Below are positions 5,235 through 20,447 of a stretch of 32,848 nucleotides of DNA, piece by piece. How positions within the stretch are numbered: position 1 is the stretch's first letter; every line of letters starts with the position of its first letter. The notes beneath the pieces are model-generated. The model worked only from the letters and a program-made list of their open reading frames with translations, ran no database searches and had not been told where the DNA came from. This DNA is from Beijerinckiaceae bacterium (lineage in GTDB: Bacteria > Pseudomonadota > Alphaproteobacteria > Rhizobiales > Beijerinckiaceae): contig CANGTC010000023.1 in NCBI GenBank assembly GCA_947456505.1, positions 1 through 32,848 of the forward strand, written 5' to 3'. A program made the position numbers and the translations under genes.

Positions 5235-6020
5235 ATGTCTCTCGCATCCCGCAACGCCATCGTCACCGGCTCCACCAGCGGCATTGGCCTCGCCATAGCC
5301 CGGGCGCTCGCGAAGGAAGGCGCCAATATCATGATCAATGGCTTCGGGGAGGCCACGGCCATCGAAGCCGAGCGCGCCGGCATCGAGAGCGAATTTGGCG
5401 TCAAATGCATCTATAACGGGGCCGATATGTCCAAGGGCGACCAGATCGCCGCCATGGTGAAGGAAGCCGAGGAGAAGCTGGGCTCGGTCGACATCCTCGT
5501 GAACAATGCGGGCATCCAGTTCGTCTCGCCCATCGAGGATTTCCCCCTCGACAAATGGGACCAGATCATCGCCATCAACATGTCGTCGGCCTTCCACGCG
5601 ATCCGCGCCGCAGCGCCGGGCATGAAAGCGCGCAAATGGGGGCGCATCATCAACACGGCGTCAGCCCATTCGCTGGTCGCCTCCCCCTTCAAGGCCGCCT
5701 ATGTCACCGCCAAGCATGGCGTCGCCGGGCTCAACAAGACCGTGGCGCTGGAGCTGGCGACCTTTGGCGTCACCTCCAACTGCATCTCGCCCGGCTATGT
5801 CTGGACGCCGCTCGTCGAAAAACAGATCCCGGACACCATGGCCGCCCGTCATCTGACCCGCGATCAGGTCATCAATGACGTGCTGCTGACGGCGCAGCCG
5901 ACCAAGCAATTCGTCACCTCCGAACAGGTGGCGGCTCTGGCGGTGTTCCTGTGTTCGGACGCTGCCTCCCAGATCACCGGCGCCAACATCTCCATGGATG
6001 GAGGCTGGACGGCCGCTTGA
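5235..6020 (+). CDS. bdhA: D-3-hydroxybutyrate dehydrogenase (SDR family)
   Basis: A 261-residue classical short-chain dehydrogenase that interconverts D-3-hydroxybutyrate and acetoacetate with NAD, in the cytoplasm, usually as the step after polyhydroxybutyrate (PHB) breakdown. It shows the cofactor motif TGSTSGIG (11-18), NNAG (90-93), the catalytic S143, Y156 and K160 (YVTAK) and SPGYVWTPLV (185-194). The substrate-site residues known for hydroxybutyrate dehydrogenases appear at Q95, H145 and K153, and the C-terminus SMDGGW is typical. The length matches the family norm of about 260. The ATG at 5235 follows GGAGAG at 5225-5230; the in-frame ATG at 5184 would add 17 non-conserved residues. 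The next gene follows 10 bp downstream and is very probably cotranscribed. Confidence 0.9.
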   Translation: MSLASRNAIVTGSTSGIGLAIARALAKEGANIMINGFGEATAIEAERAGIESEFGVKCIYNGADMSKGDQIAAMVKEAEEKLGSVDILVNNAGIQFVSPIEDFPLDKWDQIIAINMSSAFHAIRAAAPGMKARKWGRIINTASAHSLVASPFKAAYVTAKHGVAGLNKTVALELATFGVTSNCISPGYVWTPLVEKQIPDTMAARHLTRDQVINDVLLTAQPTKQFVTSEQVAALAVFLCSDAASQITGANISMDGGWTAA

Positions 6021-14938: not shown

Positions 14939-17900
14939 CTATCGGATCTGGATCAAGGTCTCCGTCAATTGCTTCTGGGTGTCGATCATCTTCGCGGACG
15001 CCTGAAAATTGCGCTGGGATGTGATAAGTTTCACCAACTCATCCGTCACATCGACATTGGACTGCTCCAGCGCGCCTGACTTGATTGAACCCAGACCGCC
15101 AATCCCCGCTTGTCCCATTAACGGCTCGCCAGACACCGCTGTCGCGACCCAATCTGCATTGCCGATCTGTTGCAAACCATTGGGATTGGCGAAGTTCGCC
15201 ACCATGATCTTGCCCAACGCCACGGTCTTGCCATTAGAATAACTCGCGCGAACGGTGCCGCTGGCGTCAATATCCAGTCCATCCATGCTCCCCTTGGGAT
15301 AACCATCCTGAGAAAGCGATGTGACGGAAAAAGCTGTATTGAACTGCGTCGTCGTTTTCCCAAAATCAATACCCAAATTCAGAGCGGCGGCGCTTCCTAG
15401 ATCCAACGGCGCCGTCCCGTCCTCCAACTGATCTGATGAATACTGGAAAGCCTCCAGCGGCGAAACAATCTTACCATAGGTGTCGAACGAAAGTTCGCCT
15501 TCGTCGAGATACAAAGGAACCCACTTCTGGTCGTTCGCCGGATCTGAGTTGCTTGTCACATAATTGGATGCAACGACTGTCCGCATAGTGCCATCGGCGT
15601 TCAATGCGGGCGCAAGGATAGTATATTGAGGTGTAGAACCACTCGTCTGCGTAACATTCTTCAACCCAAGGCTCGCGGACCCGATGACATTAATCTGGGA
15701 ATTTGGCCCGGTGCTTCCTGCGGTAAACTCAAGACGATTTTGATCGGGATTATACCGGACCACCACACCGCTCACTTTACCTTTGCTGGTTTCGAATTGA
15801 TTGACGCGCTCCTGGATCGCAGAAGCCAGGGTGTCTCCGGTATAGGCTTTTATCGGGAGAGTGATATCGCCTACAATGCCATCCACCGAGATCGTTAACT
15901 TGTTTTCAGAGTTAAGGACATTAGGCGTGAAGGTCTTGTTCATCGGAATGATGGCGCGCATTCCAATGGCGGTCGCATGTGTAGATGGAAGCCCCTCGCC
16001 AACTGCGGATTGGGTCAACGCACCCCCCGAAACATAGTTAACCCCAACTCCCAGCAGATTGCTGTTTCCATTGAAATCAACGACTGACACGGACCCAACG
16101 GTCTGCCCATTGGTGCTCTCGATGGCGGACGAAGAAACCCCATTCAGGCGAACATTGATAGGTAAATTATCGCCTGTGGAAGGACCGAAAACCGTAAGCT
16201 TGCTTTCGTTAAGGGCGACAGATATCGAGCCCAGGTCAGGTGGACGAACTTGAACCCCCGCCGCCTTTATTTGCTCTATCGAGATAGTACCCAACACAGC
16301 ACCATTAGCATTCCACGTCGCCACCAATGCGTTACCCGCCGCGCTGAACGTCACATTCGCAAATTCAGATATAGTATTCGCCTGTAGCGCCAAATCATCC
16401 ACAGTACCATGAGCTAGCGTCACGTCGTGGCTCGCCACCGAACCGTCATGCATCGGTATGGAAACCCTGTAAACATCCCCCTGCGACAGATTGAGCGAAG
16501 AACCAGTCGGATTCTTGAAAGCCAGCGTTTGAACGGTCCGGGTATTATCAGTGCCCGAAATTACGTCCGGAATAGAACCGACAACCGTGACATCCGTTAG
16601 ATCGATAGGATTGAGGATCCTGCTATTTCCATCATAGTCTTGAGCCATGGTAACCGTATCTGCCGGCCCAAAAGTCGTCCAAGAGAACAAAAGCTGCTGG
16701 CTGCCAGGATCGGACGTTACACTGACCTCAATTGGATCAGGGCTAGGCGGAACCTTGTTGGGATCATTGTAGTCCGAAATCGCACCATTTATGGCTGTCG
16801 CAAGTTCAGCGCGACGTTCCGCAGGGCTTTTTCCGGTCAGATCGGGCAAGGGACCAACGCTCAACGACACGGGAGCGACACCACTCGAGGGCGCAATTCT
16901 GAGTGTAAAATGATCGCCTGTCTGCAGTAATCCAGAAGCAGTCAGGGCCCTGCTTTCATAACTAGTGTCCGAACCAGGCGAAACTACGGTGTCTGCTGAG
17001 AAGTTGACCCGAACGAGCGTACTGTCGGTTCCCCGGACTGTCTGTTTAATAGAGACCGGCGAAGAAATAGGATCCGAACTGGGCCAGGTGAATTGAATTT
17101 TGTTATCAGCCGTCAGCGCAGCGACTGCTTTGACAGGATCTACGGGATTAGGCGACCCTACGGGACCATTATAAGATGATATCGCATCATTGATCTTGTT
17201 TAAGAGAAAATTTAACCGACCATTGACGGAAGGGAATGTCAGGGGCCCGATATGCAGTGTGACAGATTTTTTCCCGGATGATGGAGTAATAGAGATGTCA
17301 AATTTGTCGCCATTCATTAATTTCCCGCTTGGGCTTAATGACGCAACCAGTTCGCTTTGCGTTCCTTGAGTTGCGCTTTGTGTCGCCGCAGTGACATCCT
17401 TGAAGGTGACAGGAAGAGCCTGCTCCAACCCATCAAGAAAAGCTGCCTGCTGGGTTGCCGGATCACTAAGTTCAGGCGGCGTAAAATTATAGTTCAACAC
17501 TCTTCCATTAGCCATCAAAGACAATGTTTGAGACGAAGAAAAGCCAGTCGCAGTCAGATCATAAATTTGCTTCTGGGGCATAGCAGACGTTACAAGTAGA
17601 GATCGACCAACAGAGACCTTCGAGTTCACACCTGTCGACCCTGACACAAAACTGAATGTACTGTCGCCGTTGTAATCGACCCGAATGTCGCGTCGCTGAA
17701 AACTGGGATCGGGAATGGCGTCAGGCAAAGCTTCACCACCCACCCAACTCGATGCTGTTCCAATGGGCGTAGCGATGCTATCCGCCTTGGGTGGAATGCC
17801 GAGACTGTTTGCGGAAGTTGAGGCGTTAAAAACCTTGATAGCTGAATATTTATTGAGTTGATTGCTGTCGACCGTGAACGTCAACGCACGCGCCTGTTTG

Positions 17901-19414
17901 TCGTAACCGACAAGGATCGGGGGATGTAAGGGATCGTCGGCCCAATTCGCGGGCTTATCGAAATCCTCTCTTCTCTGGTTCAACAGATCGTTGAGTTTCC
18001 TTTGCGCTATCTTGACAAGCTCATCGCTGCTCAACGTAAGCTGATTGTCCGGCTGCGCCTTCGGCTGCCCTTGAACGGCGACTGTCGGCGTTCCGGAAGA
18101 ACCTCCCAAGCCCAGCAGGTCGATCTCAAGAGGATGATCGAGGGACAGGAGCGACTGCCCGTCCGGCTTGAGCAAATCAATTTGTAAAATGTCATTTCCA
18201 GCCACGACAGTTCCGCCGGGCGTCCGATAAGTGTCCTGAATCGTAAATTTACCAGCATCATCAAACTGATTATTGACGGCTTTCGTCAGAGCGTCAGCCA
18301 GTTCCGTGGCGAAATATTGCTTGCTGGGCTGATCCTGGACAATGCTTATGGACCGAGGGGGTGACCCATCGATCGAAACTGTAAACATATTGCCGCCCCA
18401 AAATACATTAGGGTCGTTACCTCCGCCTTCTTGTGTCGTCTGAAATAAAGCAGGATCGGTGACTATCGTCACCTTTCTATCGTTCGCCTCACCAAAATCA
18501 AATCCCTTAGCGCTCAATACTGACGCACTGGTTGAGGCGACAGTGTTATTTTGATTATCCTGTTTGTACAGAGGTTGAGTGACTGAATCAACTTTTAAAA
18601 GACCAACGACCTTATCAAGTTCGGCATCCGTTTTAATGCTACCGAATTGATCTATGTAGTATACATTGCCTTGAGAATTCTTAGCTTGCATGAGCGGCGG
18701 TTTTAATTCCGAGTCGCCTACAAACACATGTGTCTGCCACTTATTGCCAGACGAATTATCGCTGGCGTTGGCTGTTTTGACATAATAGATCGTCGCGATC
18801 CTGGCCGTTCCCAGTGAATCGTATATGGTGACCGAAGACGATTTTGAATAGGTACTGGGATTATTCTTATCAAACGCTACAGTTGATGGAATGACTTTGG
18901 AATCAGCAGGCAAATTCACAGCAAGCTGGATATTCGACGTCGCCTGAGGCGGCGGAGACGTCATAGGCAACTGCAGACTCTTTGCTGCGCTAACGCCCGT
19001 TGCAAATACAGAACCATCAGAGTTTACAGGATAAACCTGCAGGTGCTGACCTTGGCTGTCGACCACATAAAAGTCGCTGTTGACTGTAAAAGAACCGCTG
19101 CGTGAAAAAATAATTTGGCTAGAAGAGAGGCTTGGTTTGAGGGTAAAAAATCCCTGTCCTGAAATCGCTATATCGAGCGTATTGCCGCTTGTCGCGAGAT
19201 TGCCCTGCGTAAACTGCTGTTTGATTGATTTCAGCAGGGTTCCAGAGCCGATGGTGAATTTGGAAGATTGAGACGGAGACGTCGAAAAAATATCCCCGAA
19301 TTCAGCTGTAGAGCGCTTGAATCCTGTAGTGCCGATATTTGCAATATTATTGGAGGTGGTTGCAATCTCGTTCTGGGCTCCGTGAAGGCCTGTAAGTGCG
19401 GTGGAAAATGACAT
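14939..19414 (-). CDS. flgE: Giant flagellar hook protein FlgE (1491 residues)
   Basis: FlgE polymerises into the flexible hook joining rod and filament; it is exported by the flagellar type III system. The N-terminus has the hook/rod signature (SFSTALTGLHGAQNEIATTSNNIANIGTTG is the D0 helix; SGQGFF at 85-90; FSRSGSF at 103-109). The C-terminus has the matching D0 helix (ALEQSNVDVTDELVKLITSQRNFQASAKMI, then TLIQIR). Between them lie about 1000 extra residues: enteric FlgE is about 400 and many alphaproteobacterial forms are below 700. The insert is Ser/Thr/Asp-rich and contains repeated modules (see the repeat entries). The whole frame is open, so it is not an assembly fusion. The ATG has GAAGAG upstream. 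No other recognisable flagellar gene is in the window, so the gene is detached from its usual cluster. Confidence 0.93.
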   Translation of the reverse strand: MSFSTALTGLHGAQNEIATTSNNIANIGTTGFKRSTAEFGDIFSTSPSQSSKFTIGSGTLLKSIKQQFTQGNLATSGNTLDIAISGQGFFTLKPSLSSSQIIFSRSGSFTVNSDFYVVDSQGQHLQVYPVNSDGSVFATGVSAAKSLQLPMTSPPPQATSNIQLAVNLPADSKVIPSTVAFDKNNPSTYSKSSSVTIYDSLGTARIATIYYVKTANASDNSSGNKWQTHVFVGDSELKPPLMQAKNSQGNVYYIDQFGSIKTDAELDKVVGLLKVDSVTQPLYKQDNQNNTVASTSASVLSAKGFDFGEANDRKVTIVTDPALFQTTQEGGGNDPNVFWGGNMFTVSIDGSPPRSISIVQDQPSKQYFATELADALTKAVNNQFDDAGKFTIQDTYRTPGGTVVAGNDILQIDLLKPDGQSLLSLDHPLEIDLLGLGGSSGTPTVAVQGQPKAQPDNQLTLSSDELVKIAQRKLNDLLNQRREDFDKPANWADDPLHPPILVGYDKQARALTFTVDSNQLNKYSAIKVFNASTSANSLGIPPKADSIATPIGTASSWVGGEALPDAIPDPSFQRRDIRVDYNGDSTFSFVSGSTGVNSKVSVGRSLLVTSAMPQKQIYDLTATGFSSSQTLSLMANGRVLNYNFTPPELSDPATQQAAFLDGLEQALPVTFKDVTAATQSATQGTQSELVASLSPSGKLMNGDKFDISITPSSGKKSVTLHIGPLTFPSVNGRLNFLLNKINDAISSYNGPVGSPNPVDPVKAVAALTADNKIQFTWPSSDPISSPVSIKQTVRGTDSTLVRVNFSADTVVSPGSDTSYESRALTASGLLQTGDHFTLRIAPSSGVAPVSLSVGPLPDLTGKSPAERRAELATAINGAISDYNDPNKVPPSPDPIEVSVTSDPGSQQLLFSWTTFGPADTVTMAQDYDGNSRILNPIDLTDVTVVGSIPDVISGTDNTRTVQTLAFKNPTGSSLNLSQGDVYRVSIPMHDGSVASHDVTLAHGTVDDLALQANTISEFANVTFSAAGNALVATWNANGAVLGTISIEQIKAAGVQVRPPDLGSISVALNESKLTVFGPSTGDNLPINVRLNGVSSSAIESTNGQTVGSVSVVDFNGNSNLLGVGVNYVSGGALTQSAVGEGLPSTHATAIGMRAIIPMNKTFTPNVLNSENKLTISVDGIVGDITLPIKAYTGDTLASAIQERVNQFETSKGKVSGVVVRYNPDQNRLEFTAGSTGPNSQINVIGSASLGLKNVTQTSGSTPQYTILAPALNADGTMRTVVASNYVTSNSDPANDQKWVPLYLDEGELSFDTYGKIVSPLEAFQYSSDQLEDGTAPLDLGSAAALNLGIDFGKTTTQFNTAFSVTSLSQDGYPKGSMDGLDIDASGTVRASYSNGKTVALGKIMVANFANPNGLQQIGNADWVATAVSGEPLMGQAGIGGLGSIKSGALEQSNVDVTDELVKLITSQRNFQASAKMIDTQKQLTETLIQIR
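16268..16540 (-). repeat. FlgE insert module C (degenerate)
   Basis: Residues 959-1049: FKNPTGSSLNLSQGDVYRVSI, HDVTLAHG, then FSAAGNALVATW and GTISIEQIK. It keeps the GD-x-x-x-x-x-I strand and the N-x-L-x-x-x-W strand of modules A and B but lacks the PSSG loop, so it is a weaker third copy. Confidence 0.45.
16637..16963 (-). repeat. FlgE insert module B
   Basis: Residues 818-926: LTASGLLQTGDHFTLRI, APSSGVAPVSLSVGPL, a helix ending NGAISDYNDP, then VTSDPGSQQLLFSW and VTMAQ. It aligns by eye with module A over its full length, including the GD, PSSG, GPL, AIS-YN and F-W landmarks. Confidence 0.7.
17045..17359 (-). repeat. FlgE insert module A
   Basis: Residues 686-790 of FlgE: LSPSGKLMNGDKFDISI, TPSSGKKSVTLHIGPL, a helix ending NDAISSYNGP, then VAALTADNKIQFTW and VSIKQ. 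The same order of elements recurs in module B about 132 residues later, showing a tandem domain duplication that has diverged. Confidence 0.7.
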
Positions 19415-19681: not shown

Positions 19682-20122
19682 TCAAGCTGCATTAGGATTG
19701 ATTGCGATCTGGACCTTATTTCCTTCGAAGGAAATCGCCCATTTCATCTCTTTCTTCGCCGACGTTTGATCCTTGACAGCTCCCGATATGGCGACTCCCC
19801 GGTGCGCTGCCGCCAGATAATTCGAACTGCTTTGAGACGCGGCGGTTTGTTGGCTCGCCAACGAGGCTGCCTGCAGTTCAAAGATTTCCTGGAACCGGTT
19901 GACTCTACCGGATTGACCATAGGCATCCAATTTTTCAGGAGCCTTTGGCGCCTCGTTGGCGCTCCTGTCGGAGTAAAAACCCGTCGCTCCGATATGAGCA
20001 TAGGTAAGCGGTTCATCGACAGCGGCGAACGTTGTCGATTGGGTTTGCCCAGTCGCGATATTTCGACCGGTTCCCGCCAAAGTCCTCGTTGCCAGAACGC
20101 TTGAAGTGCTGATCGGTACCAT
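19682..20122 (-). CDS. Unknown 146-residue protein upstream of flgE
   Basis: From the ATG at 20122 the product is MVPISTSSVLATRTL... to INPNAA, Ser/Ala/Gln-rich with no signal peptide or membrane segment. The central part (NRFQEIFELQAASLASQQTAASQSSSNYLAAA) looks like a long amphipathic helix, and the C-terminus (MKWAISFEGNKVQIAINPNA) like a small beta unit. GGGGGG lies just upstream of this ATG; a longer start at 20164 (MVNGAPFYPIGG) has no ribosome site. It precedes flgE on the same strand by 267 bp and may be a flagellar accessory or export-related protein. That rests only on position and composition. Confidence 0.6.
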   Translation of the reverse strand: MVPISTSSVLATRTLAGTGRNIATGQTQSTTFAAVDEPLTYAHIGATGFYSDRSANEAPKAPEKLDAYGQSGRVNRFQEIFELQAASLASQQTAASQSSSNYLAAAHRGVAISGAVKDQTSAKKEMKWAISFEGNKVQIAINPNAA

Positions 20123-20447
20123 GCTTTGCCCCCCAATGGGATAAAACGGCGCGCCGTTAACCATTTGTTAGCAAATTCGGCGCCAGCAAGCGGACCTCAA
20201 GAATCAACAACTTGAGAGAGGACTGCTACGTGCGACCCCGCAAATTCTCCCCCAAAGTTTGAAAATTGGACGACACGCTCCAGCTATATCATTGCAATAA
20301 ATAGTTTGCAGAACTGTCAGCACTGCCCCCGAGCCCTACCAATAGGTCCAAACGCAATCCCGCATAAAAATCGAAATACAGGCATTTTTAACTTTATCTT
20401 TGCAATTGAGGGATAGGCACATACCCATCAGGCGTTAATGGTTTCCA

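Follow-up and report, generated by a model that had tools for sequence, protein, structure and literature searches.

The window, as we call the whole stretch of 32,848 nucleotides of Beijerinckiaceae DNA analysed here, carries a giant flgE gene of 1491 codons without an internal stop (open-frame analysis; minus strand, 14939–19414) away from the flagellar genes, and we propose with middling confidence that its product is FlgE2, a diverged second copy of a clade-specific giant hook protein, a reading that takes in the steps of assembly set out below. The genome has one flagellar locus and two giant hook genes, the other one lying on contig C7, with about 50% identity between the two proteins. 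The earlier note had described a giant FlgE of 1491 residues in one open frame, with both conserved ends and an insert of about 1000 residues, and all of this is borne out, with the minus strand now assigned and the insert placed inside domain D2.

Pfam families match the orphan protein at both ends, with Flg_bb_rod at residues 5–33, the FlgE/F/G D1 domain at 83–140, FlgE_D2 from 167 and Flg_bbr_C at 1446–1490, all above curated cut-offs, so that PF00460, PF22692 and PF06429, taken as the marks of FlgE membership, are all exceeded. The FlgE_D2 match (71 bits, cut-off 22.7) is split in two, profile positions 1–99 falling on window 18563–18916 and 64–142 on 15299–15556, and therefore the insert is placed inside D2, at about residues 283–1286 (15557–18568, in the gap between the two matches). 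Around it, all on the minus strand, are the N-terminal D0/D1 core (residues 1–150, 18965–19414), the first part of D2 (residues 167–282, about 18569–18916, profile 1–98 or 1–99), its second part (residues 1287–1372, 15299–15556) and the C-terminal D1/D0 core (residues 1373–1491, 14942–15298). The protein is 3.7 times as long as the FlgE chain of 6jzt (403 residues), and in the region of the insert five short FlgEs are sparsely aligned or unaligned (five of 24 short-FlgE loci were included in this alignment, which was used only for where short FlgEs end). The orphan misses the NCBIfam equivalog cut-offs for FlgE (388.1 against 400 for NF004238, 385.2 against 472 for NF004240) and passes the subfamily model TIGR03506 (283.3 against 70.25); since the genome's own operon copy also falls below both equivalog cut-offs (384.6 and 393.4), the miss is due to the insert or the lineage. 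For the insert itself, Pfam at E 0.01 returned no flagellin/FliD D2–D3 family and no other functional family.

Inside the insert there are repeated modules, as the earlier note had claimed. Module M1 (residues 681–801, 17012–17374, minus strand) was delimited by pairwise and profile searches, and its nearest copy M2 (residues 816–935, 16610–16969, minus) by pairwise, profile and profile-profile comparison; their Smith–Waterman score is 138, against a maximum of 62 in 1000 shuffles, and a blind scan with 100-residue windows peaks at 135 on the same pair, while no score above 65 came from 20 shuffles of the whole protein. The third, degenerate copy of that note, M3 (residues 956–1058, 16241–16549, minus, profile search), stands in part: it was recovered by the iterated profile prior to its inclusion in that profile, but its pairwise similarity is weak, with M1–M3 at 48, a score that 2 of 1000 shuffles attain, and M2–M3 at 28, which 394 attain. 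HHalign profile-profile comparison gave 96% for M1–M3 (the reversed control, which was not clean, gave 31%) and 3% for M2–M3. On these sequence comparisons we take M3 to be a remote repeat of the M1/M2 module. The distant pair reported near residues 581 and 1221 is also confirmed, as a significant, though short, match of 25 residues (score 53, best of 1000 shuffles 46), and about residues 1160–1258 (15641–15937, minus) there is possibly a flagellin/FliD-like module. The AF2 model of M1 consists of three strands, a helix and three strands. Foldseek searches of the PDB with M1 and with a 1200-residue model returned mostly immunoglobulin-type domains with poor superposition and were discarded, as was the VIA list for M1, in which no row was clearly above unrelated antibodies. 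In alignment A1 the five other giant FlgEs have gaps where M2 stands. On the second-subunit reading, a hook made of the orphan would carry a different outer shell, with three modules versus two. One module is also picked up by the module profile in FlgK from locus L088, while phmmer comparison of the FlgE inserts with FlgK gave a best E of 0.0053.

The gene is called an orphan because no flagellar family was found by Pfam at E 0.01 among 19 further window frames that were scanned, 16 of which were matched. The neighbours are a sulfatase, MdoG, a patatin, two cytochromes c, a methionine synthase-like protein, glutamine synthetase, a methyltransferase, an exonuclease, an ion channel, a hydroxyacid dehydrogenase, TctC, an RND pump in three parts and OprB. 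The place behind flgD in a flg operon belongs to the copy on contig C7 and not to the orphan. Contig C7 encodes FlgD, the giant operon FlgE (1372 aa), FlgI, a FlgJ-type rod-binding protein, a giant FlgK (1406 aa, L034:2013-6233) and FliL, and also FlhA, FlhB, FliR, FliK, a FliI-type ATPase, FliG, FliF, MotA, MotB and a sigma-54 activator; FlgF, FlgG and FlgA are presumably there as well, being named from size, position and the usual gene order. Searches of the whole genome (88.17% complete) turned up a single FlgD and a single FlgK. The C7 flagellin has 279 residues (L049:1690-2526) and is small beside the giant hook protein and FlgK. Two additional genes are of FlgE/F/G type, one coding for 270 residues (L034:17362-18174), with relatives in 20 of the 28 loci named below, and one for 362 residues (L051:5278-6366), ahead of motA/motB with its own sigma-54-type site.

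The query P0001 (E 1e-60) matched 24 of 298 family genomes in 5 of 43 genera. In the genus there were matches in 10 of 51 genomes, the window's own genome being counted in both figures. A second giant copy was found neither in the other family genomes, where the matches together make up no more than one gene, in some cases divided between two contigs, nor in the other genus genomes searched. In the FlgE_D2 scan 40 of 60 family genomes matched, and the frames listed besides the giants have 404–758 residues. It had been asked whether all FlgE of the order have this size and insert, and they do not, as the insert profile matched one of 297 sampled order genomes, the window's own. The search proposed for FlgE above 1200 residues in related genomes thus yielded giants, in the 24 family genomes mentioned and in four of the loci below with gammaproteobacterial titles.

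A scan of named records gave 28 loci, mostly titled Beijerinckiaceae, Rhizobiales, Hyphomicrobiales or Alphaproteobacteria. FlgE is complete in 19 of them (1118–1695 residues), the others being eight loci cut by contig ends and L102, whose frame is broken off by a stop at residue 529, with 39 bases of contig remaining. By BLAST with the C7 queries, flgD precedes flgE in 27 of the 28, and the remaining locus, L106, begins inside flgE. FlgK, complete in 13 loci and on C7 (four cut ones, in L087, L096, L100 and L106, were left out), is giant in all 14, with 1188–1783 residues, and FlgE and FlgK lengths are correlated (Spearman 0.78, n = 14, kinship not corrected). A 61% match in genome G988 was considered as an orthologue of the orphan and rejected, since its contig is as long as that of L102, where flgD and fliL adjoin, and operon copies reach 60.6% (residues 1–521). 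Three loci (L095, L096 and L101) are titled Gammaproteobacteria and one (L100) Klebsiella pneumoniae; all four are placed in one order, and the Klebsiella title therefore looks wrong. In the tree the complete ones (L095, L096, L100) group with the six alphaproteobacterial copies without M modules (support 100), which suggests a transfer of giant FlgE between classes, in either direction. Matches came from 7 of the 36 genomes in the order of L095 and were weak in three; the frames of these three (G708, G710 and G715, 925–1140 residues), with weak similarity to the insert profile, may represent an earlier version of the giant hook protein. Among the listed titles and abstract openings of open-licence PMC papers we found no report of a FlgE above 1000 residues or of a second giant hook gene.

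The orphan has diverged strongly from these relatives. It keeps 321 of the 411 columns that are invariant in 20 other giant FlgEs (seven of the misses are gaps), while each of the 20 keeps 97.6–100% of the columns invariant in the rest. Its branch is the longest in the tree (1.13, against end branches of 0.03–0.33), and its placement among the tree groups is weakly supported (59). The divergence extends to D0/D1, where the orphan is on average 66–73% identical to the 20 relatives (67–73% for the N-terminal core), compared with 81–91% among the others, and for this reason its polymerisation may be altered. When unconstrained drift of the C7 gene to 51% identity was simulated, at least 15 stops appeared in 20 of 20 runs; since the frame of 1491 codons is open, it has been under selection during most of its history.

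Upstream of the gene there is a sigma-54-type site, TGGCGCCGAATTTGCTA, found by pattern match at 20169–20185 on the minus strand, which is that of flgE. By the consensus, sites of this type are putative sigma-54 promoters. When the window and C7 were searched, the same 17-mer recurred on C7 before a frame of 145 residues near the flagellin gene, with otherwise dissimilar flanks, and this frame matches no Pfam family. A stricter sigma-54 pattern has two matches in the window against 0.27 expected (two or more in 3 of 100 shuffles) and a looser one has five. With such counts the site alone would be modest evidence, and the 17-base identity with the C7 site weighs more. TGGCAC-N5-TTGC sites were found 850–897 bases before flgD in 17 of the 24 relatives' loci scanned (of the seven others, the contig of L100 is too short to reach that far), and whereas these 17 cluster sites read TGGCAC, the orphan site reads TGGCGC. 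The orphan site precedes an open frame of 160 codons (19682–20164, minus strand, co-directional with flgE; 146 codons from a second start at 20122), which ends 267 bases before flgE and is likely the first gene of the orphan unit. Neither Pfam nor NCBIfam gave a family for it at E 0.01. Weak matches immediately before flgD in the loci of three relatives (E 0.18, 0.41 and 0.47) and elsewhere in L080 (0.026) were taken as chance, and a phmmer comparison with 25 frames before flgD gave at most 10 bits, so that no convincing relative emerged in the fetched flagellar loci. The frames before flgD are, as judged by eye, presumably FlgC-like.

For the function of such a protein Campylobacter offers the nearest comparison. 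C. jejuni has two hook genes, the product of only one of which is in the hook, and its 865-residue protein was counted in 2016 among the longest hook proteins (PMC5069557); in the Campylobacter hook D0 and D1 form the core, which D2, D3 and D4 cover at rising radius, and cells with FlgE lacking D3/D4 have very poor motility, flagellar stubs (in more than 90% of cells) and broken flagella (PMC5097172), and changes in FlgK are tied to the larger hook (PMC5691160). C. jejuni FlgE2 (865 aa) is like the orphan in having extra domains beyond D2 (D3, D4) in a genome with two hook genes (PMC5069557, PMC5097172), but it is about 600 residues shorter, and in that species the larger of the two copies serves as the hook protein. 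When the A2 profile of the giant family was compared with PDB sequences, 5az4 was matched in one stretch (chain 610–739, the C-terminal end) and 5jxl in two, the better of which (724–850) is likewise C-terminal. By analogy with the D3/D4 and FlgK findings, the giant insert would mean a wider and stiffer hook, with FlgK grown to match. Ordinary proteobacterial FlgE has the D0, D1 and D2 core in common with the orphan and measures 362–667 residues among the matches listed for 398 phylum genomes, and longer ones may stand among the weaker matches below those listed.

We set out the second-subunit reading as follows, each step being a proposal. Sigma-54 would turn on the orphan unit along with the flagellar genes, and the protein would be exported by the flagellar type III apparatus. 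Its D0/D1 core would polymerise in the 11-protofilament hook, mixed with FlgE1 or replacing it. The string of modules would face outward and form an outer shell, making the hook thicker and stiffer in the manner of D3/D4 in Campylobacter, and the larger FlgK would match the hook's wide end. The earlier suggestion of a decorated hook, thick or adhesive, is thereby retained for the outer shell, by the Campylobacter analogy, while adhesion has no sequence support. This reading rests on the core domains above cut-offs, a flg cluster that has a second giant FlgE and a giant FlgK, the single FlgD and single FlgK found in the genome, the giant FlgE in 19 complete copies, the FlgK giant in 14 of 14 with correlated length, the frame kept open against the expectation from drift, the sigma-54-type site and the motility defect of Campylobacter without D3/D4 (PMC5097172). 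Against it are the distance from every flagellar gene found, the lost invariant columns with D0/D1 affected, the lack of a second giant copy in any other genome searched, TGGCGC in place of TGGCAC, and the presence in the C. jejuni hook of only one of its two hook gene products (PMC5069557). A more far-reaching form, which we put forward as doubtful, is that one flagellum is built with two giant hook subunits, swapped or mixed to alter the shell (stiffness, thickness, phage recognition), the modules being a fast-evolving cassette that turns over by gain and loss, with 0 to 4 copies, and is sometimes common to FlgK.

The C. jejuni precedent (PMC5069557), together with the orphan position and the changed constraint in D0/D1, also suits a protein that is no longer a hook subunit and is exported via the flagellar apparatus for use outside the hook, e.g., as a surface or released protein. 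We consider this unlikely, because D0/D1 is still 66–73% identical on average to the operon copies and the insert matches no other functional family. The long branch (1.13), the loss of otherwise invariant residues and the lack of a second giant copy in the other genomes searched could mark a duplicate under relaxed constraint, on its way out and without present use; however, a frame of 1491 codons that is still intact after such change must have been selected for throughout most of its past, and the promoter-type site is retained, which makes decay less likely again. The least probable explanation, with a slim chance, is a contig from another organism of the same sample, in which there may be no other hook gene. 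A contamination of 6.27% is given for the genome, and when stretches of three same-genus genomes (G249, G288 and G028) were searched, only the ion channel was matched among 22 window frames, FlgE included; no shared orphan locus and no clean empty site came to light there. However, that ion channel is closest to those of the same three genomes (79, 79 and 76% identity), in which respect the window is in keeping with the genus, the 17-base site has an exact counterpart on the flagellar contig, and even then the gene would stand outside any flg operon. Blastn also matched window 5249–5333 in two same-genus genomes, at L142 and L143 (84 and 75 bases, about 75% identical), in otherwise unrelated surroundings.

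With FlgE2 as a second hook subunit or not, there is here a bacterial group with hook proteins of 1118–1695 residues and FlgK of 1188–1783 residues, beside a flagellin that, in the single genome read for it, has 279 residues. The giant flagellins of marine gammaproteobacteria (Bermanella, Oleibacter) are alike in being axial proteins above 1000 residues with tandem-repeated extensions, and form thick filaments (PMC6248924); there the flagellins are giant, whereas here it is the hook protein and FlgK. The group is a natural test of the width and stiffness limits of the universal joint, of the adaptation of the hook-filament junction and of the passage of long subunits through a narrow export channel. 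One member, Rhizobiales bacterium TNE-4 (L080), has a record that, like that of L102, is not marked as a MAG, and it may be a cultured strain.
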